Part shown: positions 234 to 22,493 of the stretch, in pieces
Numbering within the stretch: position 1 is the stretch's first letter
How the letters are laid out: each line of letters opens with the position of its first letter
Assembly (NCBI GenBank): GCA_035574235.1
Contig: DATLZA010000176.1
Location: 1-36,791 of the forward strand
Reading direction: 5' to 3'
Length of the DNA: 36,791 nucleotides
Origin: Planctomycetota bacterium
Lineage (GTDB): Bacteria; Planctomycetota; MHYJ01; JACPRB01
Notes under the pieces: model-generated
What the model was told of the DNA's origin: nothing
What the model saw: only the letters and a program-made list of their open reading frames with translations
Databases searched by the model: none
Program-made: the position numbers and the translations under genes

Positions 234-1481
234 ATGCCGGAAGGCGCGCCGATCATCGTCCTCATCGGAACCCTCGACACGAAGGGACGTGAGATCGCCT
301 ACCTGCGCGACCGCATCCGCGAGCACGGCCTGGGGACCCTCGTTCTGGACTCCGGCATCCTCGGCGGACCGGTGGACATCGTCCCCGACATCCCGCGGGA
401 GGAGGTCGCCCGCGCCTCCGGTTCCGACCTCGAGAAGATCCGCCACGCGGGCAGCCGCGGGGCCGCCGTCGAGCAGATGATGAAGGGCGTGGCGGCCACC
501 TGCGCCAGGCTCCACCAGGAGGGCCGCCTTCACGGAGTCGTCAGCCTGGGCGGCGCGGAGGGCGCCGTCATGGCCGCCGCCGCGATGCAGGTCCTCCCCG
601 TGGGCGTCCCCAAGCTCATCGTCACGCCCCTGGCTTCCGGCCGGCGCGTCTTCCATCCCTTCGTCGGCATCCGCGACATCATGGTCATGCACTCGGTGAT
701 CGACATCCTGGGCATCAACCAGGTGAGCCGGCTCATCTTCGACCAGGCCGCCGGGGCCATCGCCGGAGCGGTCAAGGGCATGGCCGAGGCCTCGCGCCGC
801 GCCCCCGCGGCCGCCGGGGAACGCCGCAAAGTAGTGGCGCTCACCATGCTCGGCAACACCACCAAGGCCGTCGAGCACATCAAGCCCAGGCTCGAAGCCC
901 GCGGGTTCGAACCCATCATCTTCCATTCCAACGGCGTCGGCGGCGCGGCGATGGAGGAGATGATCCGCGAGGGACGCGTGGACGCCGTCATCGACTACAC
1001 CACCGACGAGCTGACCGATCACCTCGTGGGCGGCTTCCACGACGCGGGCCCCCGGCGCCTCGAGGCCGCCGGAGAGCGCGGCCTTCCCCAGGTGGTCGTC
1101 CCCGCCTGCGTGGACTTTTTCGTCCAGGGACCCCGCAACGCCATCCCCGACAAGTGGAAGGACCGGAAGGCCTATTACCACAACCCGAGCTTCACGCTGC
1201 TGCGGACGAGCCGGGAGGAGATGCTCGAGGTCGCGCGGATCATGGCCCGCAAGCTCAACGCCGCGCGCGGGCCGGTCGCCGTGGCGATTCCCACGGCGGG
1301 GCTTTCCATCCCCAACAAACCCGGCGGGGAATTCTGGGATCCCGAGGGGGACGCCCGCTTTCGCCAGGAGCTCAAGCGAAACCTTCGCCCGGAGATCCGG
1401 GTCGTCGAGGTCGACGGCCACGCCAACGACCCCGCCTTCGCCGAGAAGGTGCTCGAACTTTTTCTGGAAACCGTGCGATAG
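234..1481 (+). CDS. UPF0261 / Tm-1-like ATP-binding domain protein
   Basis: The 415-residue protein matches the length of bacterial UPF0261 proteins. The signature GTLDTKG lies at residues 12-18, right after the first hydrophobic strand, and a second glycine-rich loop, SLGGAEG, is at 104-110. The family takes its name from the N-terminal half of the tomato Tm-1 resistance protein, which binds ATP. The biochemical role of the bacterial members is not established. No signal peptide or membrane segment is visible, so it should be cytosolic. It is the first gene of a seven-gene operon with a creatininase-like protein, a FAD oxidase/Fe-S pair and an epimerase. A role in processing a small metabolite is therefore plausible but inferred. 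ATG 234 is the first start after the promoter; the Shine-Dalgarno sequence is weak. Confidence 0.88.
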   Translation: MPEGAPIIVLIGTLDTKGREIAYLRDRIREHGLGTLVLDSGILGGPVDIVPDIPREEVARASGSDLEKIRHAGSRGAAVEQMMKGVAATCARLHQEGRLHGVVSLGGAEGAVMAAAAMQVLPVGVPKLIVTPLASGRRVFHPFVGIRDIMVMHSVIDILGINQVSRLIFDQAAGAIAGAVKGMAEASRRAPAAAGERRKVVALTMLGNTTKAVEHIKPRLEARGFEPIIFHSNGVGGAAMEEMIREGRVDAVIDYTTDELTDHLVGGFHDAGPRRLEAAGERGLPQVVVPACVDFFVQGPRNAIPDKWKDRKAYYHNPSFTLLRTSREEMLEVARIMARKLNAARGPVAVAIPTAGLSIPNKPGGEFWDPEGDARFRQELKRNLRPEIRVVEVDGHANDPAFAEKVLELFLETVR

Positions 1482-1514
1482 CGAACCCGTTGCTCGATTT
1501 TTGGGAGGACGGCC

Positions 1515-2384
1515 ATGGCGTTCAATCCGGTCTCGTGGTGTCTGGCGGACCTCTGCGTCCCCGACGTGCAGGAGTATCTCAAGGAGAAGGACATCATCCT
1601 CATCCCCATCGGCTCGATCGAGCAGCACGGCCTGCATCTGCCGCTGGTGACCGATGCGGCCCAGGGACTCGAAATCGCCCGGCGCGCCGCCGCCAAGGCC
1701 CGCGTCCTGTACACCCCGGTCGTCTGGTTCGGCTACTCGCCCCACCACCTCGGCCGCGTCGGCGAAGGGACCGGAACGATCACCCTGCGCGCCTCCACCC
1801 TGCATGCGGTCCTGTACGACATCGTCCGCAGCCTCATCCACTCGGGCTTCAAGAAGTTCGTCATCGTCAACAACCAGGGCTCCAACATCAAGGTGATGGA
1901 TCCCATCCTCCGCAAGCTCCACTACGACACGGGGGCCTTCATCTGCATGAGCAAGCTCTACGCCGAGCGGTACATCGGCATCATCAAGGAAGTCATGGAG
2001 AATCCGCCGGAGGAAACGCCCGGATGGCACTCCAGCGAGCTTGAGACGTCCCAGATGCTGGCCTACAACGAGAAGCTCGTGCGCATGGAGCGCGCGAAGA
2101 AGGAGCTGGCCCACGCCCCCAAGTGGCTGCCCCCCTCCTTCCAGAAGAACGACGGCATGCCGGAAGTGAAATTCAAGGGCTACGAGTACTTCGTCTTCCC
2201 CATGGAGCACCGGGACTTCTCCGACACGGGCACGATCGGCAACCCCCTCCGGGCCACCCGGGAAAAGGGCGAAAAAACCTACGAGCTTTATTCCGACCAC
2301 CTCGCCGAGGCGCTCAAGGAATTCGAGAAGGTCAAGGTGGAGCTCAAGCCGGGCGTCCAGGAATTCGTGGACCGGGCGCTGTAA
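1515..2384 (+). CDS. Creatininase family protein (putative amidohydrolase/lactonase)
   Basis: The 289-residue protein carries the creatininase-family opening block PIGSIEQHGLHLPLVTD (31-47), with the metal-binding residues Glu36, His38 and Asp47. The later block HSSELETS (172-179) matches the family HAGExETS motif. The usual NGHGGN block is replaced by NNQGSN (119-124), so the central His is Gln. This may change metal binding. Family members hydrolyse cyclic amides or convert small cofactor precursors, and the substrate cannot be read from the sequence. A good ribosome-binding site (GGGAGG, 1502-1507) precedes ATG 1515. The gene lies 33 bp after the UPF0261 gene and 3 bp before the FAD oxidase gene. 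The context suggests opening a ring or removing an ester or amide from a sugar-derived compound; this is inference. Confidence 0.87.
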   Translation: MAFNPVSWCLADLCVPDVQEYLKEKDIILIPIGSIEQHGLHLPLVTDAAQGLEIARRAAAKARVLYTPVVWFGYSPHHLGRVGEGTGTITLRASTLHAVLYDIVRSLIHSGFKKFVIVNNQGSNIKVMDPILRKLHYDTGAFICMSKLYAERYIGIIKEVMENPPEETPGWHSSELETSQMLAYNEKLVRMERAKKELAHAPKWLPPSFQKNDGMPEVKFKGYEYFVFPMEHRDFSDTGTIGNPLRATREKGEKTYELYSDHLAEALKEFEKVKVELKPGVQEFVDRAL

Positions 2385-2387
2385 CCC

Positions 2388-3836
2388 ATGTCCCCCCGAA
2401 TCCTGGCCCGGGACGTCCTTCTCAGCGAAGTGGCCGACGTGGTCGGCGACGGCGACGTCACTGTCCGCGAGGTGGACCGGCTGGCCTACGCTCAGGACTA
2501 CTTCTGGCTGGGCCAGATGTGGATGGACCGGGGCGAGGAGCCCGCGCGGCCCGACCTCGTCTGCTACCCCGAGTCCACCGAAGAGGTCAGCCGCCTCCTC
2601 AAGATCGCCACGCGCCACCGCGTTCCGGTCATCCCCTACGGCGGCGGCAGCGGCACCCAGGGAGGCGTGGTCCCGCTCTACGGCGGAATCGTGCTCGACC
2701 TCAAGAAAATGAACCGCATCGTGCGGCTCGACGAACAGTCCCTCACCGTCCGCGCCCAGGCCGGCATCAACGTGATGCACCTCGAGGAGGCGCTCAACCG
2801 GCGCGGACTCACCTGGGCGCACTACCCCGCCTCCGGTCCCGTGGCCACTCTCGGCGGCTGCATCGCCGCCCGCGGAACGGGCACGATCTCCACGAAGTAC
2901 GGCAAGGCGGAGGACATGGTCGTGGCGCTCCAGGTCGTGCTGGCCGACGGCCGCGTTCTGGAGACGCTTCCCACGCCCAACCACGCCTGCGGACCCGGGC
3001 TCCTGCAGCTTTTCGTGGGCTCCGAAGGGACGCTCGGCGTCATCACCGAGGCGGTCGTGCGCCTGGATCCGCTGCCGCCCGTGCGGCGCTTCCGGGGGTA
3101 CCTCTTCGAGGACCTGCGCAACGCGCTGGAGGCCGGGCGCCGCATCATGGTCCGGCGCCTGCATCCGTGCACCCTGCGCCTGTACGACCCGCCGTCGACC
3201 AAAAAATTCGTCAAGCGGGTCCTCCATCTCGACGTCGAGGGCTCTTTCCTCATCACCGGCTGCGACGGAGAGCCGGAGATGGTGGACCTCGAAGAGCGGC
3301 TGATCCACGAGATCTGCACGGGCCTCGGAGGCAAGGACGCCGGCCGCGAGGCCGGCGAGCACTGGTGGGCCCACCGGTACGACTTCTACTACCCGCCCTT
3401 CGCTCCGGCGCTTCCCACCCTCTTCGGAACCGTCGAGAGCACCACGACGTTCGACCGCATCTACGAGCTCTACCTTGCCAAGAAGAAGGCGATCGAGGAA
3501 GGATTCAAGGAGTGGCAGGCCCATTACACGGGCCACTTCTCCCACTGGTATCCGTGGGGCACGATGGTGTACGATCGCTTCTACATCGAGAAGCCCCCGC
3601 AGGACGCCCGGGAGGCGCTCCTCCTGCACAACCGCGTCTGGGCCACGGCCGCCCGCACGAACCTGGCGCACGGCGGCACGCTCAACGACCACCACGGGAT
3701 CGGCTTCAAGCTGGGATGGCTCATGCCCGAACAGTACGGCGCGGGGTGGGAGGCGCTGTGCCGCATCAAGGACGCCCTCGACCCCCTCGGGATCATGAAC
3801 CCCGGCAAGCTCGGCTTCGGACCTCCCAAGGCTTGA
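2388..3836 (+). CDS. FAD-binding oxidase, GlcD/AGPS-like (VAO/PCMH fold)
   Basis: This 482-residue flavoprotein has the FAD_binding_4 core. PYGGGSGTQGG (83-93) is the pyrophosphate loop, and GSEGTLG (211-217) is a further hallmark. The C-terminal half resembles alkyl-dihydroxyacetone-phosphate synthase and glycolate/D-lactate oxidases: it has an HHG motif at 435-437 and ends with DPLGIMNPGK, close to the usual LDP-x-x-x-x-NPG signature. It probably oxidises a 2-hydroxy acid or sugar-derived alcohol and passes electrons to the Fe-S protein encoded 12 bp downstream, as GlcD does with GlcF. The start is 3 bp after the creatininase gene, so translation is probably coupled. No export signal is seen. 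True ether-lipid synthesis is unlikely in this sugar-related operon, although it cannot be excluded. Confidence 0.88.
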   Translation: MSPRILARDVLLSEVADVVGDGDVTVREVDRLAYAQDYFWLGQMWMDRGEEPARPDLVCYPESTEEVSRLLKIATRHRVPVIPYGGGSGTQGGVVPLYGGIVLDLKKMNRIVRLDEQSLTVRAQAGINVMHLEEALNRRGLTWAHYPASGPVATLGGCIAARGTGTISTKYGKAEDMVVALQVVLADGRVLETLPTPNHACGPGLLQLFVGSEGTLGVITEAVVRLDPLPPVRRFRGYLFEDLRNALEAGRRIMVRRLHPCTLRLYDPPSTKKFVKRVLHLDVEGSFLITGCDGEPEMVDLEERLIHEICTGLGGKDAGREAGEHWWAHRYDFYYPPFAPALPTLFGTVESTTTFDRIYELYLAKKKAIEEGFKEWQAHYTGHFSHWYPWGTMVYDRFYIEKPPQDAREALLLHNRVWATAARTNLAHGGTLNDHHGIGFKLGWLMPEQYGAGWEALCRIKDALDPLGIMNPGKLGFGPPKA

Positions 3837-3848
3837 GAGAGACCAACC

Positions 3849-4961
3849 ATGCCTTTCACCGAGGACGATTACAGGACGGCGGTCCGGTCCTGCCGCTTCT
3901 GTCCGATGTGCCACCACGCGGACCTCGTGACGACGCTCACGCGCCGCGAAACCACCTCGCCCCGCGGGCGGGGGCTGACGCTCTTCGCCCTGGAGCAGGG
4001 CAAGCTCTCCTGGGACGCGTCCGTCGCGGACGTCCTCTACCGCTTCACCGCCGACGGCCTCTCCCGCCACGTCTGCGCCGGGCACATCAACCACGACGAG
4101 ATGGTGATCGAGGGGCGGCGTCGCGTGGCCTCCGCGGGAGCGGCCCCCGAGGCGGTCGGGCGCGTCCGGGCCAACATCGAAAAAACCGGCAATCCCTGGG
4201 GCGAAGCGGATCCGGGCCCCGAACGGGCCCTGGGCATCAAGGCGCGCCGCCGGGACGCCGCGGTCCTCGTCGTGCTCGGACCGGCGGCGCGCGTGCGCCG
4301 TCCCGAAGCGGCCCGCGCCTTCGGACGCCTCCTCGAGCGCGCGGGCCTCGTCCCCGCCGTGCTCGACGAGGAGGGCGATCCCGGCCTCCTTCTCTATCAG
4401 CTCGGTTTGCCCGAGCCGGCGCACGCCGCGGCCCGAACGCTGGCGGAGAAAATCCGCGCCTCCGGGGCCCGCGAGGTCGTCACCCCCGACCCCGACGTCT
4501 ACCGGACGCTGACGGCGGGCTTCGGCGATTTTCCCGGCCTCGGCAAGGCCGCCGCGGTCCGGCACGCCGCGGAATTCCTGGAGACGCTCGCGCGGGAGGG
4601 CCGCCTCAAGTTCCGGCCGCCCGCCGCGAAGACGGCCTACCACGATCCGTGCGCGCTGGCCCGGTTTTCGCCCTTGATCGCGCCGCCGCGCGCGCTGATC
4701 AAGGCCGTTTCGGGCCGGGATCCCCTGGAGCTTCCCTGGAACCGCGAGGCGGCCGCCTGCTCCGGCGAGTGCGGCGGCCTTCCCTTCACGTACCCGGATC
4801 TGGCCCGCGCGGCCGCCGAGCGGCGCGCGGCCCAGGCGCGCGAGACCGGCGCCGAGGTCCTCATCACGGCCGGTCCCGGGACCGCGCACCACCTGGCGCA
4901 GGCCGGCGGAGGGTTCGCGAAAGATTTGACGGAATGGACGGCGGAGTGTCTAGTGGGATAA
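3849..4961 (+). CDS. GlcF-like Fe-S/CCG-domain protein with missing cysteines
   Basis: The 370-residue protein looks like the Fe-S partner of a GlcD-type oxidase. It has an N-terminal ferredoxin-like region and a C-terminal cysteine-rich (CCG) region. The first block, CRFCPMC (Cys15, 18, 21), is followed by the typical SPRGRG segment (38-43), but the fourth cysteine position reads Asp. Where a second four-cysteine cluster is expected, only Cys76 remains. The CCG region keeps HDPC (Cys268) and CSGECGG (Cys304, 308). Its final Cys-Pro-x-Cys motif reads GPGT at 342-345. It may hold only one cluster, or mainly act as a structural partner. It is encoded directly after the FAD oxidase, supporting a two-subunit oxidoreductase. 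The domain assignment is solid; the redox function is uncertain. Confidence 0.85.
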   Translation: MPFTEDDYRTAVRSCRFCPMCHHADLVTTLTRRETTSPRGRGLTLFALEQGKLSWDASVADVLYRFTADGLSRHVCAGHINHDEMVIEGRRRVASAGAAPEAVGRVRANIEKTGNPWGEADPGPERALGIKARRRDAAVLVVLGPAARVRRPEAARAFGRLLERAGLVPAVLDEEGDPGLLLYQLGLPEPAHAAARTLAEKIRASGAREVVTPDPDVYRTLTAGFGDFPGLGKAAAVRHAAEFLETLAREGRLKFRPPAAKTAYHDPCALARFSPLIAPPRALIKAVSGRDPLELPWNREAAACSGECGGLPFTYPDLARAAAERRAAQARETGAEVLITAGPGTAHHLAQAGGGFAKDLTEWTAECLVG

Positions 4962-4984
4962 ACGCGCCTTCGGAGGGTAGAACG

Positions 4985-5965
4985 ATGGGGATGAAAATCG
5001 CCAGCCACCATTGGATGCGCATGGTCGACCCGCTCGAGAAGGTTTTCGCGCGCCTGGCCCGCTGCGGCTACGACGCCATCGAGCTCAGCGGCGAACCCCA
5101 TAAGCCGGGCTACTCGGTGCCCGAAATCAAGAACCTGATGGAGAAGTACAAGATCGAGGTCTGGGGCGCCGTCACCCTCATGGTCCAGGGCCGCGACCTC
5201 GTCAGCCATCTGCCCGAAGTCCGCGCCAAGAGCATCCAGTACTGCATCGACATCCTCGACTGGCTGAAGCCCCTCGGCGGCAAGGAAATCACGGTCGTCC
5301 CCGGCGAGGTCGGCCGCATCAAGTCCGTGGCCGACCCCGACGACGAGTGGAGGTGGGGCGTCGAAGCGATGCGCAAGATCGCCGCGCACGCGCGCGAGCT
5401 CAAGATCAAGGTCGCCATCGAGCCCCTGAACCGCTTCGAGACGAACTTCATCAACAACCACAAGCAGGCGCTCCTCCTGGCCCAGGAGGCCGGAGACGAC
5501 GTGGGCGTCTGCCTGGACGCCTTCCACATCAACATCGAAGAAGAGGACCCGGTCGCCGCCATCAAGGCCGTGGGCAAGAAGCTCTACGACTTCCACGTGG
5601 CCGACACGAACCGCCGCCCCCCCGGCCAGGGACACCACGACTGGGACGCGATCCTCGGCGCCATCGCCAAGACCGGCTACGAAGGATGCCTCACCAACGA
5701 GTTCGTGATCCCCGACGACCGGACGCCGCTCAATCCCTCGAAGGGAGATCCCGCCGCGCTCAAAGGGATGACGCCGGAGGAGATCAAGTTCTACGTGGAC
5801 CATGCGATGGCGGTCCTGAACGACGAGGAGTACGAAAAGCACGTCCGCGCCACGGGCGACTTCCTGAACCGCTGGCTCCGCAAACACGGCCTCAAGGGCG
5901 GCGGCGGCGCGCCGGCGCCGAAGAAGAAGGCCCGGCCGGCGGCCGCGAAGTCCCGGAGGCGGTAG
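4985..5965 (+). CDS. D-tagatose/D-psicose 3-epimerase-like sugar isomerase
   Basis: This 326-residue TIM-barrel protein belongs to the AP-endonuclease-2-like sugar epimerase group. The block EPLNRFETNF (146-155) is typical of D-tagatose 3-epimerases. The metal/catalytic set Glu146, Asp178, His204 and Glu239 has nearly the same spacing as in characterised ketose 3-epimerases. HVADTNRRPPGQGHHDW (204-220) is another family block. It should invert C3 of a ketose in the cytosol. ATG 4985 is chosen because GGAGGG (4973-4978) lies 6-7 bases upstream; an ATG at 4991 is less well placed. The last 25 residues form an unusual Gly/Ala/Pro/Lys/Arg tail ending in SRRR, outside the catalytic fold. It is the fifth gene of the operon, 23 bp after the Fe-S gene. 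Confidence 0.9.
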   Translation: MGMKIASHHWMRMVDPLEKVFARLARCGYDAIELSGEPHKPGYSVPEIKNLMEKYKIEVWGAVTLMVQGRDLVSHLPEVRAKSIQYCIDILDWLKPLGGKEITVVPGEVGRIKSVADPDDEWRWGVEAMRKIAAHARELKIKVAIEPLNRFETNFINNHKQALLLAQEAGDDVGVCLDAFHINIEEEDPVAAIKAVGKKLYDFHVADTNRRPPGQGHHDWDAILGAIAKTGYEGCLTNEFVIPDDRTPLNPSKGDPAALKGMTPEEIKFYVDHAMAVLNDEEYEKHVRATGDFLNRWLRKHGLKGGGGAPAPKKKARPAAAKSRRR

Positions 5966-6004
5966 GGCCCGCCTCCGTCCGCGCGGCGCGGCGGGAGGAC
6001 CGTC

Positions 6005-6682
6005 ATGAGAAGCATCGCGCTGGCCGTCCTGGGGGCGCTGTCCTGGGCGTGGCCCGCCGCGGGCCAGGACCCCGCGCCCTCGAAGTTCCCCGCCGAGCTT
6101 CACCCGTGGCGGCGCTTCAAGCCCGGCACGAGCGCCCGCTACCGTCTTGTGCAGCAGGTCCAGGAACAGAAGCAGGAGGGGGAGATGGTCTTCACCCTCC
6201 ACGATTCCGGCCCCGACGCCTTCGTCGTGCGCGTCAAGGTGACTCTTCCGGGGTTCGAGCAGGAGCGCGCCGAGCGCGAGAGCGTCGCCGTCCGGGCGGC
6301 CGAGGAGCCCGTGCGGGTCGGCGACCGGGATCGACCCTGCGTCGTGTGGACCTCCCGCGGCGAACGCGGAACGCTTGTCCTGGAGCGGCGCGCCTGGATC
6401 CCGCCGGGGCGCGGCCTTCCCCTCCGCCTCCTGTCCACGTCCAAGGACGAAGAGCTCGAACTTCGGGCGGAACGCGAGGACGAGGAGCTCACCGTCGCGG
6501 GCAGGACCTACTCGTGCGTCCGCCTCCGGGGCCGCATGAAAACGGCCGAGCAGGGGGAGGTCGAGGTCACCCTCTGGATGGCCGAGGGGATTCCCGGCGG
6601 GGTGGCCCGGATGGAGACCTTCGCCCTCGGCCGGCGCGTCCGGGCCTCGATCGAACTGGTCGAAATCCAGGAGGCGAAGTAA
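6005..6682 (+). CDS. Secreted protein of unknown function
   Basis: The 225-residue product begins with a clear signal peptide, a hydrophobic stretch of about 17 residues ending in AAG-Q, so it should be exported. The mature part has alternating charged and hydrophobic beta-strand-like segments with many Glu and Arg. It contains three tryptophans in short conserved-looking contexts and only two cysteines. I recognise no family with certainty. GGGAGGACC just ahead of ATG 6005 is a good ribosome-binding site. It is encoded 39 bp after the epimerase and 4 bp before the DUF1080 gene, so it is almost certainly co-transcribed with both. An extracytoplasmic partner or substrate-handling protein for the DUF1080 product is possible, but this rests on position alone. 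Confidence 0.75.
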   Translation: MRSIALAVLGALSWAWPAAGQDPAPSKFPAELHPWRRFKPGTSARYRLVQQVQEQKQEGEMVFTLHDSGPDAFVVRVKVTLPGFEQERAERESVAVRAAEEPVRVGDRDRPCVVWTSRGERGTLVLERRAWIPPGRGLPLRLLSTSKDEELELRAEREDEELTVAGRTYSCVRLRGRMKTAEQGEVEVTLWMAEGIPGGVARMETFALGRRVRASIELVEIQEAK

Positions 6683-6686
6683 GGCC

Positions 6687-7322
6687 GTGAGGCGGCGCGC
6701 GGCGGCCTTCGGAGCGCTCCTGGCGGCGGCCTGCTCGGTCTCCCCGGAGGAGCCCGGCTGGCGGGATCTCTTCAACGGCCGCGATCTCGAAGGCTGGGAG
6801 GTCGTGGGCACGGCCGTCTGGCGCGTGGAAGACGGCGAAATCGTCGGCGGCCAGGAGGGCGACCCGCGCCGGTCGGGGCTCCTGGTCACCCGCGAGACCT
6901 TCGGCGACTTCGAGCTGTCGCTCGAATTCAAGATCGACGAGCACGGAAAGTACAACAGCGGCGTCTACCTGCGCCACCCGCCCGGCCGCGCCGCGCGGGC
7001 GGGTTATCAGGTCAACATCGGTCGCGGCGCCGCCGGCGAATACTGCGGCGGGCTCTTCCTCAAGGACTGGCTGGCCAAGGGGGACGAACACGACCGGATC
7101 CGCCGGCCCGGGGACTGGAACCGGCTCTTCATCCGCGCCCGGGGACCCCGCATCACGGTTCGCCTGAACGGCGTCGAGGTCGTGGACTACACGGATCCCG
7201 CTCCCGAGCCGAGGCTTCTGGAACCCGGGGCGATCGCGCTTCAGACCTACGGCGCGGAGGGGCACGCCGGCTGGGTGCGGTTCCGCCGCCTCCGCATCCG
7301 CCCGCTTCCCCCGCCGGGCTAA
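6687..7322 (+). CDS. DUF1080 (3-keto-disaccharide hydrolase-like) lipoprotein
   Basis: This 211-residue protein has the DUF1080 pattern almost in full. WRDLFNGRDLEGW lies just after the signal sequence. It is followed by the FELSLEFKID strand, the NSGVYLR motif, a WNRLFIRARG segment and the NGVEVVDY strand near the end. The family has a concanavalin-like beta-sandwich and includes enzymes cleaving 3-keto-glycosides, and it is abundant in planctomycetes. The start is GTG 6687. The N-terminus ends in LLAAAC, a plausible lipoprotein cleavage site though not a perfect lipobox. It closes the seven-gene operon. Its stop overlaps the stop of the opposing Gfo/Idh gene by 4 bp. Together with that dehydrogenase it suggests 3-keto-sugar chemistry, an inference from family knowledge. 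Confidence 0.88.
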   Translation: MRRRAAAFGALLAAACSVSPEEPGWRDLFNGRDLEGWEVVGTAVWRVEDGEIVGGQEGDPRRSGLLVTRETFGDFELSLEFKIDEHGKYNSGVYLRHPPGRAARAGYQVNIGRGAAGEYCGGLFLKDWLAKGDEHDRIRRPGDWNRLFIRARGPRITVRLNGVEVVDYTDPAPEPRLLEPGAIALQTYGAEGHAGWVRFRRLRIRPLPPPG

Positions 7323-8506
7323 CCCCGGGCGCGGGCTTTCGCGGAACGCGCCTTCCGGACGCGCGCGGCCTTCCCGCCCTTCCGCAGCGTCCAGGCCGGC
7401 ATCCGGAGCACCTTCCCGCCCAGAAGCGCCGACTGGTGCGCCAGGATCCCCACCATCGTGATGTTGGCGGACTCCACCGCGTTCGGATAGGGATCCCGTC
7501 CCTCGACGACCGCGCGGACGAACTCGTGCGCCAGATGCGGGTGCGAGCCGCCGTGCCCGGAACCCTGGATGAACGAGAGATGCCGGTTTTCCTTGGAATC
7601 GTAGACTCCCTGCGTCGTGAAGCGCCGGATGCCTTCGGGCAGCAGATGCGCGAAATCCGGCACCTTGACGCGCTCGGGAATTTCAGGCTCCGGCTTCTTG
7701 GCGGTATGGATCACCGGATCTTCGCCCTCGATGAGCGGCCATTCGAAGGATTTCTTCGACCCGTAGACGTCGAAGCTCTCGCGGTACTGGCGGGCCGTGT
7801 CGAACAGCGAGCGGTAGATCCGGGCGGACAGGTCGCTCTCGCGGAACTTGATGTGGCAGGTTTCGACGGCGAAGGGGGAGTTGTAGCGGCGCACGAGCTC
7901 CGGCCGGATCGTCCCCGAGCCGAAACAGGAAACCGCCTCCGCCTCCGAGCGCAGGAGCCCCAGGCAGGGCCCCACGCAGTGGGTCGCGTACCACATCGGC
8001 GGCAGCCCCGGCCAGTAATTCGGCCATCCGTCCATGTCCTGCTGATGCGAGGCCTGGACGAACTGGATCTTGCCGAGGTCCCCGCGAAGGGCGAGCTCGC
8101 GGACGAAGAGAAACTCGCGGGCGTAGACCACGGTTTCGGCCATCATGTACGTCAGGCCCGTCTTCTTCTGGAGCTCCACGATCCGGCGGCATTCGGCCGA
8201 CGACGTCGCCATGGGCACGGTGCACATCACGTGCTTGCCGGCCTCCAGGCCGGCGATCGACATCCAGCCGTGGTCCGGAATAGGGGTGTTGATGTGGACG
8301 GCGTCCACGTCGCGGTCCCGGAGGAGCGCCCGGTAGTCCTCGTAGCGCCGGGGAACCTTGAAGGCGTCGGCGATCTCCGCCAGGCGCTTCGGGTTGCGCT
8401 GGCACACCGCCACCAGCTCCGCGTCCGGATGATTCTGGTAAATCGGGATGAACTCGGCCCCGAAGCCCAGCCCGACGATCGCGACCCTGACTTTCCTGGC
8501 GCCCAT
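7319..8506 (-). CDS. Gfo/Idh/MocA family oxidoreductase
   Basis: The 395-residue protein has an N-terminal Rossmann fold with GLGFGAEF (12-19) as the dinucleotide loop and the conserved GKHVMC segment at 90-95. The usual Glu-Lys-Pro motif after it reads TVP (96-98), so the conserved lysine is absent. The C-terminal domain has the GHGGSHPHLAHEFVRAV pattern used in this family to hold substrate. It should be a cytosolic NAD(P)-dependent sugar dehydrogenase or a related enzyme. ATG 8506 is preferred because a GGAGGACGAAGCC stretch precedes it; an upstream ATG would add an Arg/Pro-rich leader. The last 23 or so residues form a Lys/Arg/Ala tail, as in the epimerase. It is divergent from the XylR-like regulator. 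Confidence 0.87.
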   Translation of the reverse strand: MGARKVRVAIVGLGFGAEFIPIYQNHPDAELVAVCQRNPKRLAEIADAFKVPRRYEDYRALLRDRDVDAVHINTPIPDHGWMSIAGLEAGKHVMCTVPMATSSAECRRIVELQKKTGLTYMMAETVVYAREFLFVRELALRGDLGKIQFVQASHQQDMDGWPNYWPGLPPMWYATHCVGPCLGLLRSEAEAVSCFGSGTIRPELVRRYNSPFAVETCHIKFRESDLSARIYRSLFDTARQYRESFDVYGSKKSFEWPLIEGEDPVIHTAKKPEPEIPERVKVPDFAHLLPEGIRRFTTQGVYDSKENRHLSFIQGSGHGGSHPHLAHEFVRAVVEGRDPYPNAVESANITMVGILAHQSALLGGKVLRMPAWTLRKGGKAARVRKARSAKARARG

Positions 8507-8537
8507 GGCTTCGTCCTCCGCAAAAAGCGACCCCGGC

Positions 8538-8543
8538 ACCCTA
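8538..8543 (-). promoter_or_regulatory. Candidate -10 of the Gfo/Idh gene
   Basis: TAGGGT reads on the minus strand 31 bases ahead of the Gfo/Idh start. The same hexamer followed by a similar G-rich stretch (TAGGGTG then CGGG) lies at the mirrored place ahead of the divergent regulator (8622-8627). No good -35 is seen. Low-confidence prediction. Confidence 0.3.
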
Positions 8544-8580
8544 TCCGGGCGGCGCCGCGGGCGCCATGAGAACGGACGCA

Positions 8581-8627
8581 CTTTTTTTGAGATTTTTGAC
8601 GCGGGCGCCCCGGAGCCGGGGTAGGGT
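8581..8627 (+). promoter_or_regulatory. Regulator promoter region with T-tract repeat
   Basis: Two T-runs separated by GAGA (8582-8597) form a short direct repeat of TTTTTGA type, followed by TTGACG (8596-8601) and TAGGGT (8622-8627). The 20-bp spacing is long for a sigma-70 promoter. The T-rich repeat is the only AT-rich block between the divergent Gfo/Idh and XylR-like genes. It is the likeliest site for the AraC-type DNA-binding domain to act on both promoters. Inferred from position and composition. Confidence 0.3.
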
Positions 8628-8655: not shown

Positions 8656-9801
8656 ATGCGCCGCCGCCGCGCCGTCGCGCTGCTCGTCGAAACCTCGAAC
8701 GCCTACGCCCGGGGGGTGCTGGCGGGGATCGTGGCCTACGTGCGGGGCCACGAACCCTGGTCGCTTCACCTTCCGGAACTGGGCCGCGGGGACACGCCGC
8801 CCGCCTGGCTGGCCCGCTGGCGGGGGGACGGCATCATCGCCCGGATCGAAACGCCCGAAATCGCCCGGGCGGTGGCCCGCACGGGGCTTCCGGTCGTGGA
8901 TGTGAGCGCCGGGCGCCACCTTCCCTCGGCGCCGTGGGTCGAGACCGACGACCGGGAGATCGCGCGCCTGGCGGTCGAACACCTCCTGGAGCGCGGGTTC
9001 CGGACGCTGGGCTACTGCGGCGATCCCCGCTTCAACTGGTCGCGCTGGCGGGAGGAGCATTTCGCGCGCCGGGCGGCCGAGGCCGGCGTCGAGGTGCGCC
9101 TCTACCGCTCCCGCTCCCCGGCGCCCGACCGCGAGCGCCGGGAGCTCGGGGAGTGGGCCCGGCGGCTGCCCAAGCCCGCCGGGGTCCTGGCCTGCTACGA
9201 CATCATGGCGCAGCGGCTGCTGGACGCCTGCCGCGACGCCGGCGTCGCCGTGCCCGACGAAGTGGCCGTCCTCGGCGTGGACGACGATCCGCTCCTCTGC
9301 GACCTGGCTTCGCCTCCGCTTTCGAGCGTCATTCCCAACACGCGCCGCACGGGGTACGAGGCGGCGGCGCTCCTGGCGCGCCTGATGTCCGGGGAGCGCG
9401 TGCCCCCCCGGGCGGTGCTCGTGCCGCCCCTCGGAATCCACACCCGCCACTCCACCGACGTTCTGGCCCTCGAGGATCGGGAGATCGCCGCGGCCGTCCG
9501 CTTCATCCGCGAACACGCCTGCGACGGGGCGACGGTCGCCGATCTGCTCAAAGCGGTGCCGCTTTCACGGCGGGTGCTGGAGAGCCGCTACCGGAAGGCG
9601 ACGGGGCGGACCCCCCACCAGGATCTCCTGCGGATCCGGATCGAGCGCGTCCAGCAGCTCCTGGTGGAGACGGACCATTCCCTCGAACGGATCGCGTCTC
9701 TGGCCGGCTTCAATCATCCGGAATACATGAGCGTGGCGTTCAAGCGCGAAACGGGGATGACGCCCGGCCGCTACCGGCGCCGCGCCCGCCCGAAGGACTG
9801 A
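8656..9801 (+). CDS. XylR-type regulator: LacI-like sensor plus AraC HTH
   Basis: The 381-residue protein joins a periplasmic-binding-protein-like ligand domain (about 5-270) to a C-terminal AraC/XylS DNA-binding domain (about 275-375). The sensor shows GVLACYDIMAQRLLDACRD and VAVLGVDDDPLLC, both typical of LacI/XylR sugar sensors. The HTH part ends with the AraC signature: LERIASLAGFNHPEYMSVAFK, then ETGMTPGRYR. This architecture is known from the xylose regulator XylR and from many planctomycete regulators. It should bind a sugar or sugar derivative in the cytosol and control nearby genes. The divergent Gfo/Idh gene is the most obvious target, and the alpha/beta hydrolase and permease genes downstream are others. 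A stem-loop follows the stop codon. Confidence 0.9.
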   Translation: MRRRRAVALLVETSNAYARGVLAGIVAYVRGHEPWSLHLPELGRGDTPPAWLARWRGDGIIARIETPEIARAVARTGLPVVDVSAGRHLPSAPWVETDDREIARLAVEHLLERGFRTLGYCGDPRFNWSRWREEHFARRAAEAGVEVRLYRSRSPAPDRERRELGEWARRLPKPAGVLACYDIMAQRLLDACRDAGVAVPDEVAVLGVDDDPLLCDLASPPLSSVIPNTRRTGYEAAALLARLMSGERVPPRAVLVPPLGIHTRHSTDVLALEDREIAAAVRFIREHACDGATVADLLKAVPLSRRVLESRYRKATGRTPHQDLLRIRIERVQQLLVETDHSLERIASLAGFNHPEYMSVAFKRETGMTPGRYRRRARPKD

Positions 9802-9881: not shown

Positions 9882-10673
9882 ATGGAAGTCGCCGTCCGCG
9901 GAACGCGCCTGCACTACGAAGTCTTCGGAGAGGCCGGTCCGGGAATCCTTTTCTCGCACGGGCTGGGGGGCACGCGCCATCAGTGGCGGGCCGTCGCGCA
10001 GATCCTGGCGGGCTCGTGTCGCGTCGTCACCACAGACCTGCGGGGCCACGGCGACTCGGCCAGGCCCGCGGGTCCTTACTCCGTGAAGGGCTGGGCGGAG
10101 GATCTCGCGGAGGTGGCGCGGGCGGCGGGGCTCGAACGGTACGTGGCGGTGGGAGCCTCCGTGGGGGGACCCATCGTCCTTCAGCTGGCGGCGGACCGCC
10201 CCGACCGGGTGCGCGCGGCGGTGAGCGTCGGAGGCTTCGCGGCGCTCCCGCCGGCCGGCCGGGAGCGGATGCTTCAGCGGGCCGCGGCCGTGGAAGCGCA
10301 GGGTCTGGCGGCGGTGGCCGACGCGGTCGTCGCGGCGCAGCTTTCGCCCCAGACGCACGCCGCCTCGCCCGCCCTGGCGGCCCACGTGCGGGCGGCGCTT
10401 CTCGGCAACGATCCGGCCGCCTACGCGGCGGCCGCCCGCGCCGTCGCGGAGGCCGACGTGACGAACGCCGCCCGGACGCTCGCCTGCCCGGTGCTTCTGG
10501 TCTGGGGCGTCGAGGAGAAGGTGGCGCCCTTTCCCGTCCAGGCCGCGCTCAAGCGCCTGATCCCCCACGCCGCGCTGCGGGCGATTCCAGGGGCGGGGCA
10601 TCTTCCCTTTCTCGAACGCCCGCAGGAATTCGCCGCGGCGCTTCAGGAGTTCCTGGCCGGGCTGGCGGAATGA
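9882..10673 (+). CDS. Alpha/beta hydrolase
   Basis: This 263-residue alpha/beta-hydrolase-fold protein has the oxyanion motif HGLGG (26-30), the nucleophile elbow GASVGG with Ser93, and the catalytic His240 in GAGHLPF. At the place where the acid residue usually follows WG-x-x there is Glu212 rather than the common Asp. The length and the TTDLRGHGDS segment (50-59) are typical of the 3-oxoadipate enol-lactonase and haloperoxidase-like subgroup. Sequence alone does not decide between esterase, lactonase and C-C hydrolase. No signal peptide is seen. The start at 9882 is supported by a very strong purine-rich ribosome-binding site, AAGGAGGAGGAG. It lies between the sugar regulator and a sugar permease, so a lactone or sugar ester is a reasonable guess. 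Confidence 0.85.
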   Translation: MEVAVRGTRLHYEVFGEAGPGILFSHGLGGTRHQWRAVAQILAGSCRVVTTDLRGHGDSARPAGPYSVKGWAEDLAEVARAAGLERYVAVGASVGGPIVLQLAADRPDRVRAAVSVGGFAALPPAGRERMLQRAAAVEAQGLAAVADAVVAAQLSPQTHAASPALAAHVRAALLGNDPAAYAAAARAVAEADVTNAARTLACPVLLVWGVEEKVAPFPVQAALKRLIPHAALRAIPGAGHLPFLERPQEFAAALQEFLAGLAE

Positions 10674-10788: not shown

Positions 10789-12426
10789 ATGGTCAACCGC
10801 AACCGCCTCTTGTGGGCCGGGTTCACCGCCATTCTGGCCGCGGGCGTGGGCTTCGCCATCCGCGGGGGGATTTTCGACAACTGGGGCGCCGAATTCGGCT
10901 TCACCGGAAGCCAGCTCGGCAACATCGGCGGAGCCGGATTCACGGGCTTCTGCTTCGGCATCATTCTGGGCGGCATCGTCGCCGACAAGATCGGTTACGG
11001 AAAGCTCGTCATCGCCGCCTTCCTCTTCCACACCGTATCTTATTTCGTCGCCGCCGCGGCGAACCCTGGAATGTCCCAGGAAACCGCCTACCTTACGCTC
11101 CTCTGGGGCATGTTCCTGTTCTCCTTCGCCAACGGCGTCCTCGAAGCGGTGGCCAACCCCCTGGTCGCCACCCTCTACCCCGAAAACCGTACGCACTACC
11201 TCAACATCCTTCACGCGAGCTGGCCCGGCGGCATGATCCTCGGCGCCATCGTCGGATGGGTGCTGGACGACGTTTACAAGATGCATTGGAAGCATCAGCT
11301 CGCTCTCTACCTCATTCCCACGATCGTCTACGGGCTCATGTTCCTCGGACAAAAAATGCCCAAGTCCGAAGCGTCCGAGAAGGGTCTGACCCTCGGAGAG
11401 ATGTTCAAAGACGTCGGGCTTCTCGGCGGGCTGGTCGTATGCTTCCTCCTGGCTCTCTTCTTCGGAACCAACGTTTTCAGCGCCTTCCGCATGTCGGCGG
11501 ACACCGCCTCCACCCTGGGTTATGTGGTCGCCGGCGTTCTCCTCGTCGCCGTGGGGATTATCACGCGGGGCTCGATGGGTTCCTTTCTCCTCTTCGCTCT
11601 CTTCGTGGCGCACGGGCTGGTGGGAGCCGTGGAGCTGGGCACCGACGGCTGGATTCAGAACATCACGGGCAATATCCTGACGTCCGGTCAGGGCAAGGCC
11701 CTCTTCATCTGGACCAACATCATCATGTTCACCCTCCGCTTCTGTGCCCATTTCATCGAGAAGAAGCTGGGACTGTCGCCCGTCGGAATCCTTCTGACGT
11801 GTTCGATCCTGGCGGTCGTGGGACTGAACCTCACGAGCGGAGTGAATTCCTTCGGCTTGGCGCTTCTGGCGTTGGCGGTTTACGGCATCGGAAAGACCTT
11901 CTTCTGGCCCACGATGCTGGCCGTAGCCTCCGACCGATTCCCCCGCACGGGAGCCGTCGCGATCAGCATCATGGGCGGAATCGGCATGCTTTCGGCCGGC
12001 CTCATCGGAAGCCCCGGCCTGGGATACGCCAAAGACCGCTTCGCCGGGGAAGACTTGCGGAGGAGCCGCGCTGATCTCTACGAGCAGGTCAAGGCATCCT
12101 CGGCGAGTAAGTTCCTCTTTTTCCAGGAGGTTCACGGTATCGACGGCAAGCGGCTCGGAGAAGCGGATGCCCGTCTCAAAGCCGCCCGGGAGGAGCTCGC
12201 CAAACAGGGCGTCACCGACCCCAAGGCCGCCTATGAGAAGCTGAGCCCCGAAGATCGTGCCATCCTCGAAGCCAACATCGTCGGCGACCGAAAGACCCTC
12301 AAGGCCGACTCCGTCATCCCCGCCCTTATGGCCGTAATCTACTTGCTCATCCTCCTCTACTTCAAAACGATCGGCGGCTACAAGCCCGTCACCATCGAGG
12401 CGCAAGCTTCCGCGCCGACGTCGTAA
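10789..12426 (+). CDS. MFS transporter, FucP/glucose permease-like
   Basis: The 545-residue protein has many hydrophobic segments of the major facilitator superfamily. The long conserved stretch around [18 protein letters not shown], followed by [15 protein letters not shown], is typical of FucP-like hexose/fucose symporters. It sits in the inner membrane and probably imports a monosaccharide with protons. It is longer than the usual 400-450 residues because a charged, helical, soluble stretch of roughly 90 residues (about 418-510) lies before the final membrane segment. The start follows GGGGGAGGACGACGCC, a strong ribosome-binding site. It has its own promoter, which resembles that of the 234-7322 operon, so it may supply that pathway. 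Codon use looks slightly less GC-rich than in its neighbours. Confidence 0.87.
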
Positions 12427-18634: not shown

Positions 18635-20026
18635 TCAGGCCAGGATCTCTTCGATCACCCGACCGGATACGTCCGTCAGCCGGTACCGGCGGCCGTTGTG
18701 CCGATAGGTCAGCCGGCGATGGTCCATCCCGAGCAGGTGCAGGATCGTCGCGTGCAGATCGGGCACGGAGACGGGATCGCGGGCGATCTTGTATCCCAGC
18801 TCGTCGAGCTCCCCGTAGGACGTTCCCCCCCGGACGCCCCCGCCGGCCATCCAGACGAGAAACCCGTGGGGATTGTGGTCCCGCCCGAGCCCCCCCTGCG
18901 ACACGGGCATGCGGCCGAACTCGCCGCCCCAGACCACCAGCGTCGTCTCGAGCAACCCCCGCCGCTTGAGATCCTTGAGCAGTCCGGCGATCGGGACGTC
19001 CGTCTCCTCGCAGCGGGCGTCGTGGTTCTTCTTCAGATTCTCGTGAGCGTCCCACTGGTCGTCCACGTACGCCTGGACGAACCGTACCCCCCGCTCCACA
19101 AGCCGGCGGGCCAGGAGGAGCTTTTCCCCGTATGGCCGCGTCTCCTCGCGATCCAGTCCGTACAGCCGCCGCGTCTCCTCGGTTTCGCGGGACAGATCCA
19201 CCGCCTCGAGCGCCTCGGTCTGCATCCGGTAGGCCAGTTCGAAGCTCTCGATGCGGGCCCGAAGCGCCTCCTCGTCGGGATGCCGCCGCCGGTGCTCTAC
19301 GTTGAGCCGCCCGAGCAGGTCAAGCTGCGCCCGCTGATCCGGCGCGCTCATGTCCGCCGGACGCGCCAGGTTGAGGATGGGCGTCCCCTGCGTGCGGAAC
19401 ACCGTGCCCTGGTAGGACGACGGCAGGAACCCCGCCCCCCAGTTGAGGGGTCCCCCTTTCGTTCCGATCCGGTTGCCCAGAACGACGAAACCCGGCAGAT
19501 TCCGATTTTCCGTTCCGAGCCCGTACGTCACCCAGGCGCCCGCGCTCGGGAATCCCGGCCGGATCACGCCCGTGTTCATCTGGAACATGGCGGGCGCATG
19601 GCTGTTGGACTCGGCGTGCACGGACTTGATGAAGGCGATGTCGTCCACGCACTCCGCCAGGGCGGGATATTTCTCGCACACCCAGGCTCCGCACCGTCCG
19701 TGCCGGCGAAACCGGTAGGGGGACCTCAGAAGCGGGCCGGGCCTTCCGAAGAAGACTTCGACCCCTTCGAGGCGCTTCCCATGGGCCCGGTCCAGCTCGG
19801 GCTTCGGGTCGAAAAGATCGAAGCCGCTCGGCCCTCCCTCCATGAAAAGCCAGATGACCGATCGGGCGCGGGGAACGTGATGCGGGCCGGGCGGGGAACC
19901 TCCCGCCGGGGCGGCCTCGAGAAGCCCCTCCTCCCCCAGGAGGTGCGCCAGGGCGGCCATCCCGAAGCCGAGCCCCGCCCGTCCCAGGAGCTCCCGCCGC
20001 GTCGGCCCTTCGCGATTAATCCACAT
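18635..20026 (-). CDS. DUF1501 protein, Tat-exported (first copy)
   Basis: The 463-residue protein opens with TRRELLGRAGLGFG, a twin-arginine signal, so it should be folded before export. The body has the DUF1501 pattern: SVIWLFMEGGPSGFDLFDPKPEL, an ESNSHAPAMFQMNTG block, then WGGEFGRMPVSQ and GRDHNPHGFLVWMAGGGVRGG near the C-terminus. DUF1501 proteins belong to the alkaline phosphatase/sulfatase-like clan, and their role is not established. The gene starts inside the end of the PSCyt1/DUF1553 gene (11-bp overlap), so the two are translated together. This pairing is common in planctomycetes. It is the last member of the sigma/anti-sigma/PSCyt/DUF1501 unit. Confidence 0.9.
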   Translation of the reverse strand: MWINREGPTRRELLGRAGLGFGMAALAHLLGEEGLLEAAPAGGSPPGPHHVPRARSVIWLFMEGGPSGFDLFDPKPELDRAHGKRLEGVEVFFGRPGPLLRSPYRFRRHGRCGAWVCEKYPALAECVDDIAFIKSVHAESNSHAPAMFQMNTGVIRPGFPSAGAWVTYGLGTENRNLPGFVVLGNRIGTKGGPLNWGAGFLPSSYQGTVFRTQGTPILNLARPADMSAPDQRAQLDLLGRLNVEHRRRHPDEEALRARIESFELAYRMQTEALEAVDLSRETEETRRLYGLDREETRPYGEKLLLARRLVERGVRFVQAYVDDQWDAHENLKKNHDARCEETDVPIAGLLKDLKRRGLLETTLVVWGGEFGRMPVSQGGLGRDHNPHGFLVWMAGGGVRGGTSYGELDELGYKIARDPVSVPDLHATILHLLGMDHRRLTYRHNGRRYRLTDVSGRVIEEILA

Positions 20027-22493
20027 AGGCGAATTCGTTCGTCATGAAAAGCGTATGTCCCAGATCCGCCAGACCCCGCCGCTCGTCCGCCGCCCTCCCG
20101 AGAAACTCCTCCGCCGCCTCGCGCTCGCGCGGCGTCGGGGCGCGCCCCAGCGCCAGCGCCCAGGCCCGCTCGATTCGAGCGCCCGCGCCGGGCCCCGCCT
20201 CGCGAAGCACCCGATCGGCGAAGTCCCATGCGCATCCGCGCACGAACGGATCGTTCAGCAGCGCCAGAGCCTGCGGCGCCACCGTCGTCGATACCCGGCG
20301 CCCGCAGCTCGCGCTGGGCGAAGGCGCGTCGAAAACCTCCGTCAGCGGATAGGGCACCGACCGCTTGACGAAGACGTATACGGTCCGGCGCCAGACTTCC
20401 GGGCTTTCCCGGACATCCCGCGGGTAATGATGCTCCCCTTCGGTGCGCGTGATGATGGCCTCCGCGGGAATGGGCACCTTGACCCCCGGTCCGTACATCT
20501 TTGGATTGAGCCGGCCGCTGACGGCCAGAAGCGCGTCGCGCAGGGCTTCCGCTTCGAGCCGCCGGGGACGGCGGCGCGCCAGAAGGCGGTTCTCGGGATC
20601 CTCGCGGACCGGCCCCGGGGACGCGGAGGTGTCCTGGACGTACACGGCGCTCGTGAGAATGAGCCGGTGAATCTCCTTCAGCCGCCAGCCGCGGCGCACG
20701 AGCTCCGAAGCCAGCCATTCGAGAAGTTCGGGGTGCGTGGGACGCTCGCCCTGGGCCCCGAAGTCGTTCGGGGTCCGCACGAGTCCCTCGCCGAAATGAT
20801 GCTGCCAGAGGCGGTTGACGATCACGCGGGCCAGAAGCGCCCCGGCCCCCCGCTCGACGTCGGTGAGCCATTCCGCCAGGGCCGCGCGCTGAAACGACGT
20901 GCGGGCCCCCGGCGGACGGCTCAGGCGCGGCTCCGGATCCCCCAGGGCGCTCAGGAATCCGAGCGTCAGAAGCTCCTTCTTGGCGTCCACCTCGCCGCGC
21001 TCCAGGAGCGGGCTGCGCGAAGGTTCCGGCCCCGCGTCGGTCAGAACGAGCCCGAACGGCGGCGCGGGAGGACGCCCGCGCTCGGCCTCCCGGATCGCGG
21101 CGGCCCGGCGGTCCCACTCCGCGCGTTCCGCGGGACTCAGGGAGCCGCGCAGCTCCGCCTCCGAAACGCGCAGCTCCTTCTGATGCACCGTCAGGAGTTC
21201 CTGTTGCCGCTGGTTGGACGGGTCGCGGGGCGCCAGCAGAATTTCCCGGTCCTCCTCGCGGATCCGGAGCGCCTGGACCTTCCGCCGAAAGAGGGGTTCG
21301 CGCGCGCGGCTCAGGAAGGCTTCCAGTTCCCGGCGCAGGGGCGCCACCCGCGCCTGGTACTCTTCCTCGAGCCGGCGCCACGCCTCCGCCTCCGCGGGCG
21401 GAACCAGCGGCACCTCGCGACGGCGCGTGTCGATGAACGCCGCCAGCATCCGGTAGTACTCCCGCGTCGGAATCGGATCGTACTTGTGATCGTGGCAGCG
21501 GGCGCACCCGAGGGTGAGCCCCAGAAATCCCTGTCCGAGGGTCGATAACACGTCGTCCAGCTCGTCGTACCGGTTGCGCTCCTGGTTGCGGGGGGCGTCG
21601 GCGGACTGGCGCTCCTGGACGGGCCCGGCCGTGCAGAAGCCCGTGGCCGCCGCGGCCAGGGGATTCCCGGGAGCCAGTTCGTCCCCCGCGATCTGCCAGC
21701 GCACGAACGTGTCGAAGGGCAGGTCCTCGTTGAAGGCGCGGATCACGAAATCCCTGTAGGGCCAGGCGTGTTTGCGGTCGTTGTCGAAACGGTACCCGTC
21801 GCTGTCGGCGTACCGGGCCACGTCCAGCCAGTGGCGCGCCCAGCGCTCCCCGAAGGCCGGCCCGGCCAGGAGACGGTCCACCAGGCGCTCGTACGCCTCC
21901 GGCGCGGGGTCGTTCACGAACGCCTCAATTTCCTCGGGCGAAGGCGGCAGTCCCCAGAGGTCGAAGAAGACGCGCCGAATCAGCCGCCGGCGGTCTGCGG
22001 GAGCCGAAGGCGTCCAACCCCGCGATTCGAGAGCCGCCAGGATGAAGCGGTCCACGGGTGTGCGGACCCAGGAAGCATCGCGCACCTCGGGAGGCTCCGG
22101 CCGCGCCGGCGGCCGAAACGCCCAGTGGCGCTCCGCGGGCGCCTCGGGCACCTTCAAGGGGGACCGCGCGTACGGAGCCCCCGCCGCCAGCCATTCCCGC
22201 AACGCCCGCAGCGACGCCGGCGGGAGCTTCGGGGCCCGATGCGGCATGAAGGGCTCCTCCTCGTGGGCCACGAGCCGCCAGAGCAGGGTTCGCTCCGGCG
22301 GACCGGGTTCCACCGCCGGTCCGCTTTGGCCCCCTTTCCGAAGGCCCTCGCGGGTGGTCAGGTCGAGCCCGCCCTTCCGCTTGGCCGGATTGTGACACTC
22401 CACGCAGCGGCGTTCCAGGATCGTCGAGGGATCCTCCTGCCCCGGGCGGACCGCCGCCAGAAGCGCGACCCCAACCCACGCCATCCCATTCAT
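20016..22493 (-). CDS. PSCyt1-DUF1549-DUF1553 (PSD1) protein
   Basis: The 825-residue protein combines three planctomycete domains. A cytochrome-c-like PSCyt1 part holds the heme motif CVECH at 30-34 and a possible axial Met in FMPHR near residue 82. A DUF1549/PSCyt2 part follows (about 135-340; PVDRFILAALESRGW, then GERWARHWLDVARYADSDGY). A DUF1553 part lies in the C-terminal half (VIVNRLWQHHFGEGLVRTPNDFG). A signal-like hydrophobic start implies export, where heme c could be attached. The partner DUF1501 gene overlaps its end. Its start ATG overlaps the previous stop in ATGA, confirming 22493 over the ATG at 22484. Function is unknown; an oxidative step on polysaccharides has been suggested for such modules, which I cannot verify here. 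Confidence 0.92.
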   Translation of the reverse strand: MNGMAWVGVALLAAVRPGQEDPSTILERRCVECHNPAKRKGGLDLTTREGLRKGGQSGPAVEPGPPERTLLWRLVAHEEEPFMPHRAPKLPPASLRALREWLAAGAPYARSPLKVPEAPAERHWAFRPPARPEPPEVRDASWVRTPVDRFILAALESRGWTPSAPADRRRLIRRVFFDLWGLPPSPEEIEAFVNDPAPEAYERLVDRLLAGPAFGERWARHWLDVARYADSDGYRFDNDRKHAWPYRDFVIRAFNEDLPFDTFVRWQIAGDELAPGNPLAAAATGFCTAGPVQERQSADAPRNQERNRYDELDDVLSTLGQGFLGLTLGCARCHDHKYDPIPTREYYRMLAAFIDTRRREVPLVPPAEAEAWRRLEEEYQARVAPLRRELEAFLSRAREPLFRRKVQALRIREEDREILLAPRDPSNQRQQELLTVHQKELRVSEAELRGSLSPAERAEWDRRAAAIREAERGRPPAPPFGLVLTDAGPEPSRSPLLERGEVDAKKELLTLGFLSALGDPEPRLSRPPGARTSFQRAALAEWLTDVERGAGALLARVIVNRLWQHHFGEGLVRTPNDFGAQGERPTHPELLEWLASELVRRGWRLKEIHRLILTSAVYVQDTSASPGPVREDPENRLLARRRPRRLEAEALRDALLAVSGRLNPKMYGPGVKVPIPAEAIITRTEGEHHYPRDVRESPEVWRRTVYVFVKRSVPYPLTEVFDAPSPSASCGRRVSTTVAPQALALLNDPFVRGCAWDFADRVLREAGPGAGARIERAWALALGRAPTPREREAAEEFLGRAADERRGLADLGHTLFMTNEFAYVD

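Follow-up and report, generated by a model that had tools for sequence, protein, structure and literature searches.

The seven-gene locus and its conserved core

Here, we describe a cluster of seven genes at the 5′ start of contig DATLZA010000176.1 (C176; assembly GCA_035574235.1) of a Planctomycetota bacterium. The first five recur together in three unrelated phyla as a conserved module and probably encode a hitherto undescribed route for the oxidation, epimerisation and hydrolysis of a compound resembling a sugar. The whole stretch analysed, 36,791 nucleotides in length, is hereafter called the window. All seven open reading frames (ORFs) lie on the plus strand. The core genes encode a UPF0261 (Tm-1-like) protein of 415 residues (positions 234–1481; PF06792 and PF23189, the N- and C-terminal UPF0261 domains), a creatininase-family metal hydrolase (1515–2384; 289 residues; PF02633), an FAD-linked dehydrogenase of the VAO/GlcD/ADPS superfamily (2388–3836; 482 residues; FAD_binding_4, PF01565, and FAD-oxidase_C, PF02913), a GlcF/HdrD-like Fe-S partner (3849–4961; 370 residues; CCG domain) and a TIM-barrel ketose/keto-acid epimerase (4985–5965; 326 residues; AP_endonuc_2, PF01261). 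Two genes for exported proteins follow in the same transcript, namely gene 6 (6005–6682) and gene 7 (6687–7322), the latter encoding a DUF1080 or 3-keto-disaccharide hydrolase-like protein (3keto-disac_hyd, PF06439). Pfam backs the names of six of the seven proteins; the sixth had no match in Pfam or NCBIfam. Intergenic gaps measure 33, 3, 12, 23, 39 and 4 bp, in order, and the ORFs thereby confirm the tight, co-directional arrangement with spacings of 3–39 bp that had been noted in the original prediction. A sigma-70-type promoter-like site (TTGACA-N18-GATAAT; plus strand, 181–210) lies 23 bp 5′ of the first ATG; it is a consensus match only, with 11 of 12 positions matched, and the single one in the 9 kb scanned, where 0.3 were expected. 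The locus view ends at the contig edge, only 233 bp 5′ of gene 1.

Genes 1–5 are a real conserved module, whose set recurs in three phylum-level samples and thus more than chance would have it. With the creatininase-like protein as bait (E<1e-40), and with each sample named via the locus that led to it, we obtained matches in 6 of 392 genomes of the window's phylum (its own genome counted), in 10 of 198 genomes of the phylum of a Desulfohalobiaceae metagenome-assembled genome (MAG; Desulfobacterota-type) and in 4 of 247 of the phylum of a Bacteroidaceae MAG. None of the 398 genomes in the phylum of a gammaproteobacterium matched, in a search that had no positive control there. A distant genome of the window's phylum (G127) carries genes 1–5 in identical order, i.e. 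UPF0261, creatininase, FAD, Fe-S and TIM barrel, with identities of 69, 86, 75, 52 and 62%, respectively. The expectation of a conserved gene order was therefore borne out in this nearest relative; beyond it, the set is kept but the order changes. Three further genomes of the phylum (G128, G157 and G303) have the TIM barrel, UPF0261, creatininase and FAD genes, without the Fe-S protein, and two of them (G128 and G157) have a second TIM barrel. All four matched Bacteroidota genomes share the operon order FAD, Fe-S, UPF0261 and creatininase, and the same four genes are present in the Desulfobacterota-type genomes G813 and G850. Within the G813 operon, genes for a further creatininase and for an RbsBAC-type sugar ABC transporter (RbsB-like Peripla_BP_4, ABC_tran, BPD_transp_2) intervene, and a DeoR-type regulator is divergent from the module. 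The creatininase identity to G127 (86%), set against at most about 49% for pyruvate-carboxylase-like matches there, is merely suggestive of horizontal transfer, since the latter comparison is not between clear orthologues.

Neighbourhood statistics for UPF0261 with creatininase and D-tagatose 3-epimerase (DTE)-like genes had been suggested as a check. The pairing of the first two is nearly fixed: of 24 loci with this hydrolase, counted by hand, 22 have UPF0261 nearby. As to the epimerase, each of the four Bacteroidota has one orthologue, which adjoins the operon in two and lies elsewhere in the other two. As the set recurs elsewhere without genes 6 and 7, we consider genes 1–5 the unit and genes 6 and 7 a local addition. 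Indeed, homologues of the DUF1080 and secreted proteins were absent from 327 kb covering 22 related loci. In a sister genome of the window's own family (G001), the DUF1080 orthologue (66%) lies in a region without the module, with a sulfatase-like gene on one side and a DUF1553/DUF1501-type locus on the other (both named by sequence inspection). Genes 6 and 7 are a lineage-specific exported addition, outside the module.

The five core proteins

UPF0261 has no function in the family databases or papers that we found. Tm-1, a member of the family, is a plant virus-resistance protein. The window protein passes the cut-off of 27 bits in both domains (PF06792, 181 bits; PF23189, 261 bits), and its solved relatives are Tm-1 and Saro_1862. 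The latter is the sole solved bacterial UPF0261 protein found and was crystallised with acetovanillone, an aryl ketone (title of 9mpy). A single-sequence model of low confidence (mean pLDDT, predicted local distance difference test, of 60) reliably matched these two structures only. ATP binding is suggested solely by the naming of the family from Tm-1. A scan of viral contigs returned no UPF0261 homologues. Most other UPF0261 genes of the phylum adjoin PEP_hydrolase (TBST, PF09370) genes, and co-evolution of this pair has been published (PMC5028733). The second UPF0261 copy of this genome likewise adjoins PF09370, whereas the window copy adjoins the creatininase gene. In a maximum-likelihood tree, creatininase-paired UPF0261 proteins fell into two supported clades (nine rows, 99/97; four rows, 100/99), with the window protein inside one of them. 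Partner labels changed twice on this tree, versus 9.3 times in shuffles, and 0 of 500 shuffles were as low. UPF0261 is inferred to act in concert with a hydrolase-like protein.

The hydrolase scored 206 bits against PF02633 (gathering score 31.3) and reached no NCBIfam cut-off. Glu36, His38, Asp47, His172 and Glu177 are invariant across all aligned relatives of the subfamily, the first three being the family's core metal ligands Glu34, His36 and Asp45.

The FAD enzyme bears the motifs HFSH(WY) and DHHG and scored 200 bits against GlcD glycolate oxidase (TIGR00387), below the cut-off of 567.9. Its relatives on alphaproteobacterial plasmids (52% and 36–37%) adjoin genes for xylulokinase, LacI regulators and ABC transporters; in Roseibium and Paracoccus, these are sugar transporters. 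Genes for mannonate dehydratase and idonate dehydrogenase are found beside FAD relatives as well. Together with the ribose-type transporter inside one module, this lends support to the catabolic, sugar-oxidising theme proposed originally. The Fe-S partner keeps Cys15, Cys18, Cys21 and Cys76. By the usual ferredoxin rule, such a four-cysteine set binds one [4Fe-4S] cluster, so a single cluster may be expected here. Ligands of the second cluster are lost in the copies of the window's phylum and of the Desulfobacterota-type genomes, and mostly lost in Bacteroidota. A contig search with the Fe-S protein retrieved distant GlcF-like proteins only. On a Mesorhizobium plasmid, a degenerate Fe-S partner homologue, in which hardly any of the cluster cysteines remain (L100:10368-11492), follows the 52% FAD relative and xylulokinase.

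The top NCBIfam matches of the TIM barrel are IolO (136 bits) and D-psicose 3-epimerase (129 bits), and its closest solved structure is TM_0416, which is IolO. Aligned with TM_0416 and D-psicose 3-epimerase, the window protein keeps the Glu, Asp, His and Glu motifs (IEPLNRF, LDAFH, DFHVAD and TNEF), whose residues we take to be the metal and catalytic ligands. In Sinorhizobium, a TIM relative adjoins an enolase-superfamily gene.

A candidate pathway and competing explanations

A dehydrogenase, a creatininase-family hydrolase and an IolO-family epimerase together make up the logic of Thermotoga inositol catabolism, reportedly described by Rodionova in 2013, and we therefore propose a sequence of oxidation, epimerisation and hydrolysis. 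Genes 1–5 would accordingly serve the catabolism of a sugar, polyol, cyclitol or sugar acid, a reading that we hold tentatively, at somewhat short of an even chance. The FAD enzyme would turn a secondary alcohol into a ketone and pass the electrons to the Fe-S partner, the IolO/ketose 3-epimerase-like TIM barrel would invert the carbon adjoining the ketone, and the creatininase-like hydrolase, along with UPF0261, would open the keto intermediate to an acid. This opening would most likely proceed through attack of water at a bond of the beta-dicarbonyl or lactone-like kind, as with IolN in Thermotoga. The gene set and its recurrence in the three samples, the nearly constant creatininase/UPF0261 pairing, the kept residues and the transporter surroundings are direct observations. 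Substrate, reaction order, the role of UPF0261, the reaction of the creatininase-like protein and cleavage of a C-C rather than an amide or lactone bond are all putative elements of this scheme. PMC5931981 cites the Thermotoga inositol cluster, and PMC12632266 the activity of IolO. No described pathway with this gene set was found in the literature searched, in agreement with the original prediction; this is weak evidence, as the literature lacked most subscription papers.

Several observations weigh against the proposed route. The hydrolase scored 86 bits against IolN (3-dehydro-scyllo-inosose hydrolase, NF041098; cut-off 245), less than its 125 bits against the NCBIfam creatininase model (cut-off 235), and the TIM barrel stayed far below both epimerase cut-offs, including the 300 bits of IolO (5-keto-L-gluconate epimerase, NF041099). 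Where Pseudomonas creatininase has its metal ligand His120, the proteins of the window (within VNNQGSN, 1866–1886) and of G127 alone have Gln, and the other aligned relatives have His, so the metal centre of the window hydrolase may differ. Besides, the closest solved relatives of the FAD enzyme are alkyl-dihydroxyacetonephosphate (alkyl-DHAP) synthases, followed by D-lactate dehydrogenases, and no TIM homologue was found in G813 or G850.

In a bolder version, UPF0261 could be an exchangeable partner of two unrelated hydrolase families, PEP_hydrolase/TBST and creatininase, either pair acting as an enzyme of two proteins on the C-C bonds of beta-dicarbonyls, which it would cleave. The window operon could then use the creatininase version in a new pathway for a sugar or cyclitol, respiratory and driven by FAD. 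We regard this as speculative and, taken as a whole, improbable.

A second conserved type of cluster combines genes for a creatininase-like protein, UPF0261, a class II aldolase, an IolM/Tdh-like Zn-dehydrogenase, a TIM barrel and TctABC. It occurs on Thermus plasmids, in G329 and in further Desulfobacterota-type genomes, mostly with the TIM barrel. Loci of this type are L057 (from a Thermus thermophilus plasmid), L056, in which no TIM barrel was seen, L087, L089 and L091. Its dehydrogenase scored 225 bits against IolM, a likeness that fits the same Thermotoga logic, and higher, 245 bits, against Tdh; the aldolase is OtnC-like (109 bits), and the Thermus relative of the hydrolase reached 100 bits against IolN. 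No kinase, a DUF1537 kinase included, is annotated in the Thermus cluster. This second cluster likely represents an undescribed sugar-acid pathway. A further type was observed in the Desulfobacterota-type loci L083 and L085, where a DUF169 gene lies by the creatininase-like and UPF0261 genes.

Foremost among the alternatives is ordinary polyol or uronate catabolism, in which the FAD/Fe-S pair would yield a ketose or keto acid for epimerisation by the TIM barrel, the creatininase-like protein would hydrolyse a lactone or ring without C-C cleavage and UPF0261 would perform an ATP-dependent, kinase-like step. The xylulokinase, sugar transporter, mannonate dehydratase and idonate dehydrogenase genes beside FAD relatives would suit such a pathway, as would the enolase-superfamily gene in Sinorhizobium. 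OtnC-type class II aldolases normally require a phosphorylated substrate, and the second clusters encode one, yet no other kinase is annotated in the Thermus cluster. On the other hand, we know of no lactonase activity among creatininase-family proteins, the ligand of the solved bacterial UPF0261 is an aryl ketone and not a nucleotide, and no kinase was reliably matched by the model, whose low confidence lets it speak neither for nor against a kinase fold such as that of DUF1537. Overall, we deem this explanation rather unlikely, if still worth serious consideration.

The original prediction itself had a dehydrogenase generate an extracellular 3-keto-glycoside that the DUF1080 protein would cleave first, ahead of epimerisation, oxidation and hydrolysis. 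The DUF1080 gene shares the transcript and a convergent Gfo/Idh gene lies next door, and ThuA-domain genes flank the Bacteroidota modules, a possible link to 3-keto sugars. However, genes 6 and 7 are missing from all 22 related neighbourhoods and the G001 orthologue sits in an unrelated locus. Hence, the general idea of sugar oxidation is plausible but its DUF1080-first order is unsupported, which leaves the earlier interpretation partly supported and this version of it quite improbable. The ThuA-domain genes adjoin the module in L111, L113 and L114 and lie ∼1 kb upstream in L112.

Degradation of a cyclic nitrogen compound akin to creatinine or hydantoin appears very unlikely: creatininase is the hydrolase's best NCBIfam model, but the conserved set comprises no amidase, transaminase or nitrogen-uptake gene, and the hydrolase is accompanied by enzymes and transporters of the sugar type. 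Least credible is ether-lipid synthesis by an alkyl-DHAP synthase, the very outcome named at the outset as refuting the sugar pathway, for despite those closest solved structures and an alignable HFSH/HHG region, the first His of the synthase HHH motif is Asp in the window and Asp or Glu in the module relatives, linkage to the sugar epimerase, sugar transporter and GlcF-like partner is tight, and no lipid gene was recognised among the conserved set. Both ideas were set aside.

Downstream of the operon, a Gfo/Idh/MocA dehydrogenase gene (7319–8581, minus strand; PF01408) is convergent with it and overlaps its end by 4 bp; it had no close homologue at the 22 related loci and encodes a possible accessory protein. 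A XylR-type candidate regulator (8656–9801, plus strand; a LacI-type sensor, Peripla_BP_3, with an AraC-type HTH_18 domain), an alpha/beta hydrolase (9921–10673) and an MFS transporter as candidate uptake protein (10789–12426, plus strand; PF07690) follow. These four genes and the operon could form one sugar-use locus. DUF1553- and DUF1501-like genes are common in Planctomycetota-like genomes; by sequence inspection, the window contains a PSD1/DUF1553-like and DUF1501-like pair (18635–22493) and a further DUF1501-like gene (33306–34667). A second TIM-barrel protein, hydroxypyruvate-isomerase-like and with a Tat-like leader, is encoded at 35759–36640.

Relation to known systems

The analysis turns a single operon into a defined, conserved module of five genes, related forms of which occur in several phyla, and provides UPF0261 with a second genomic partner and a proposed role. 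As in the UPF0261–PEP_hydrolase (PF09370, TBST) pair, a UPF0261 protein stands beside a hydrolase-like partner, yet here the partner comes from the creatininase family, and the UPF0261 proteins fall into separate supported clades. The 3-keto-glycoside pathway of the Bacteroides BT2157-2160 type likewise features DUF1080 and Gfo/Idh proteins, but both are outside the conserved module here. With the DUF1537/OtnK-OtnC pathways for four-carbon acid sugars, the second clusters share an OtnC-like class II aldolase, a dehydrogenase, a TIM barrel and a Tct transporter, whereas the Thermus cluster has creatininase and UPF0261 genes in place of any annotated DUF1537 kinase. The 2-hydroxyacid dehydrogenases of the GlcD/GlcF and LctD types have the same combination of FAD_binding_4/FAD-oxidase_C and a CCG Fe-S partner; unlike in these, the ligands of one of the two Fe-S clusters are lost, and the GHVGDG and GEHG motifs of GlcD and D-lactate dehydrogenases are replaced by HFSHWY and DHHG. 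A parallel in terms of logic is provided by Thermotoga maritima TM0411–TM0416 (IolG/IolM, IolN and IolO), from which the module differs in that an FAD/Fe-S pair takes the place of NAD dehydrogenases, UPF0261 is added and all NCBIfam equivalog cut-offs are missed. The module is predicted to encode a respiratory form of the IolM-IolN-IolO route.

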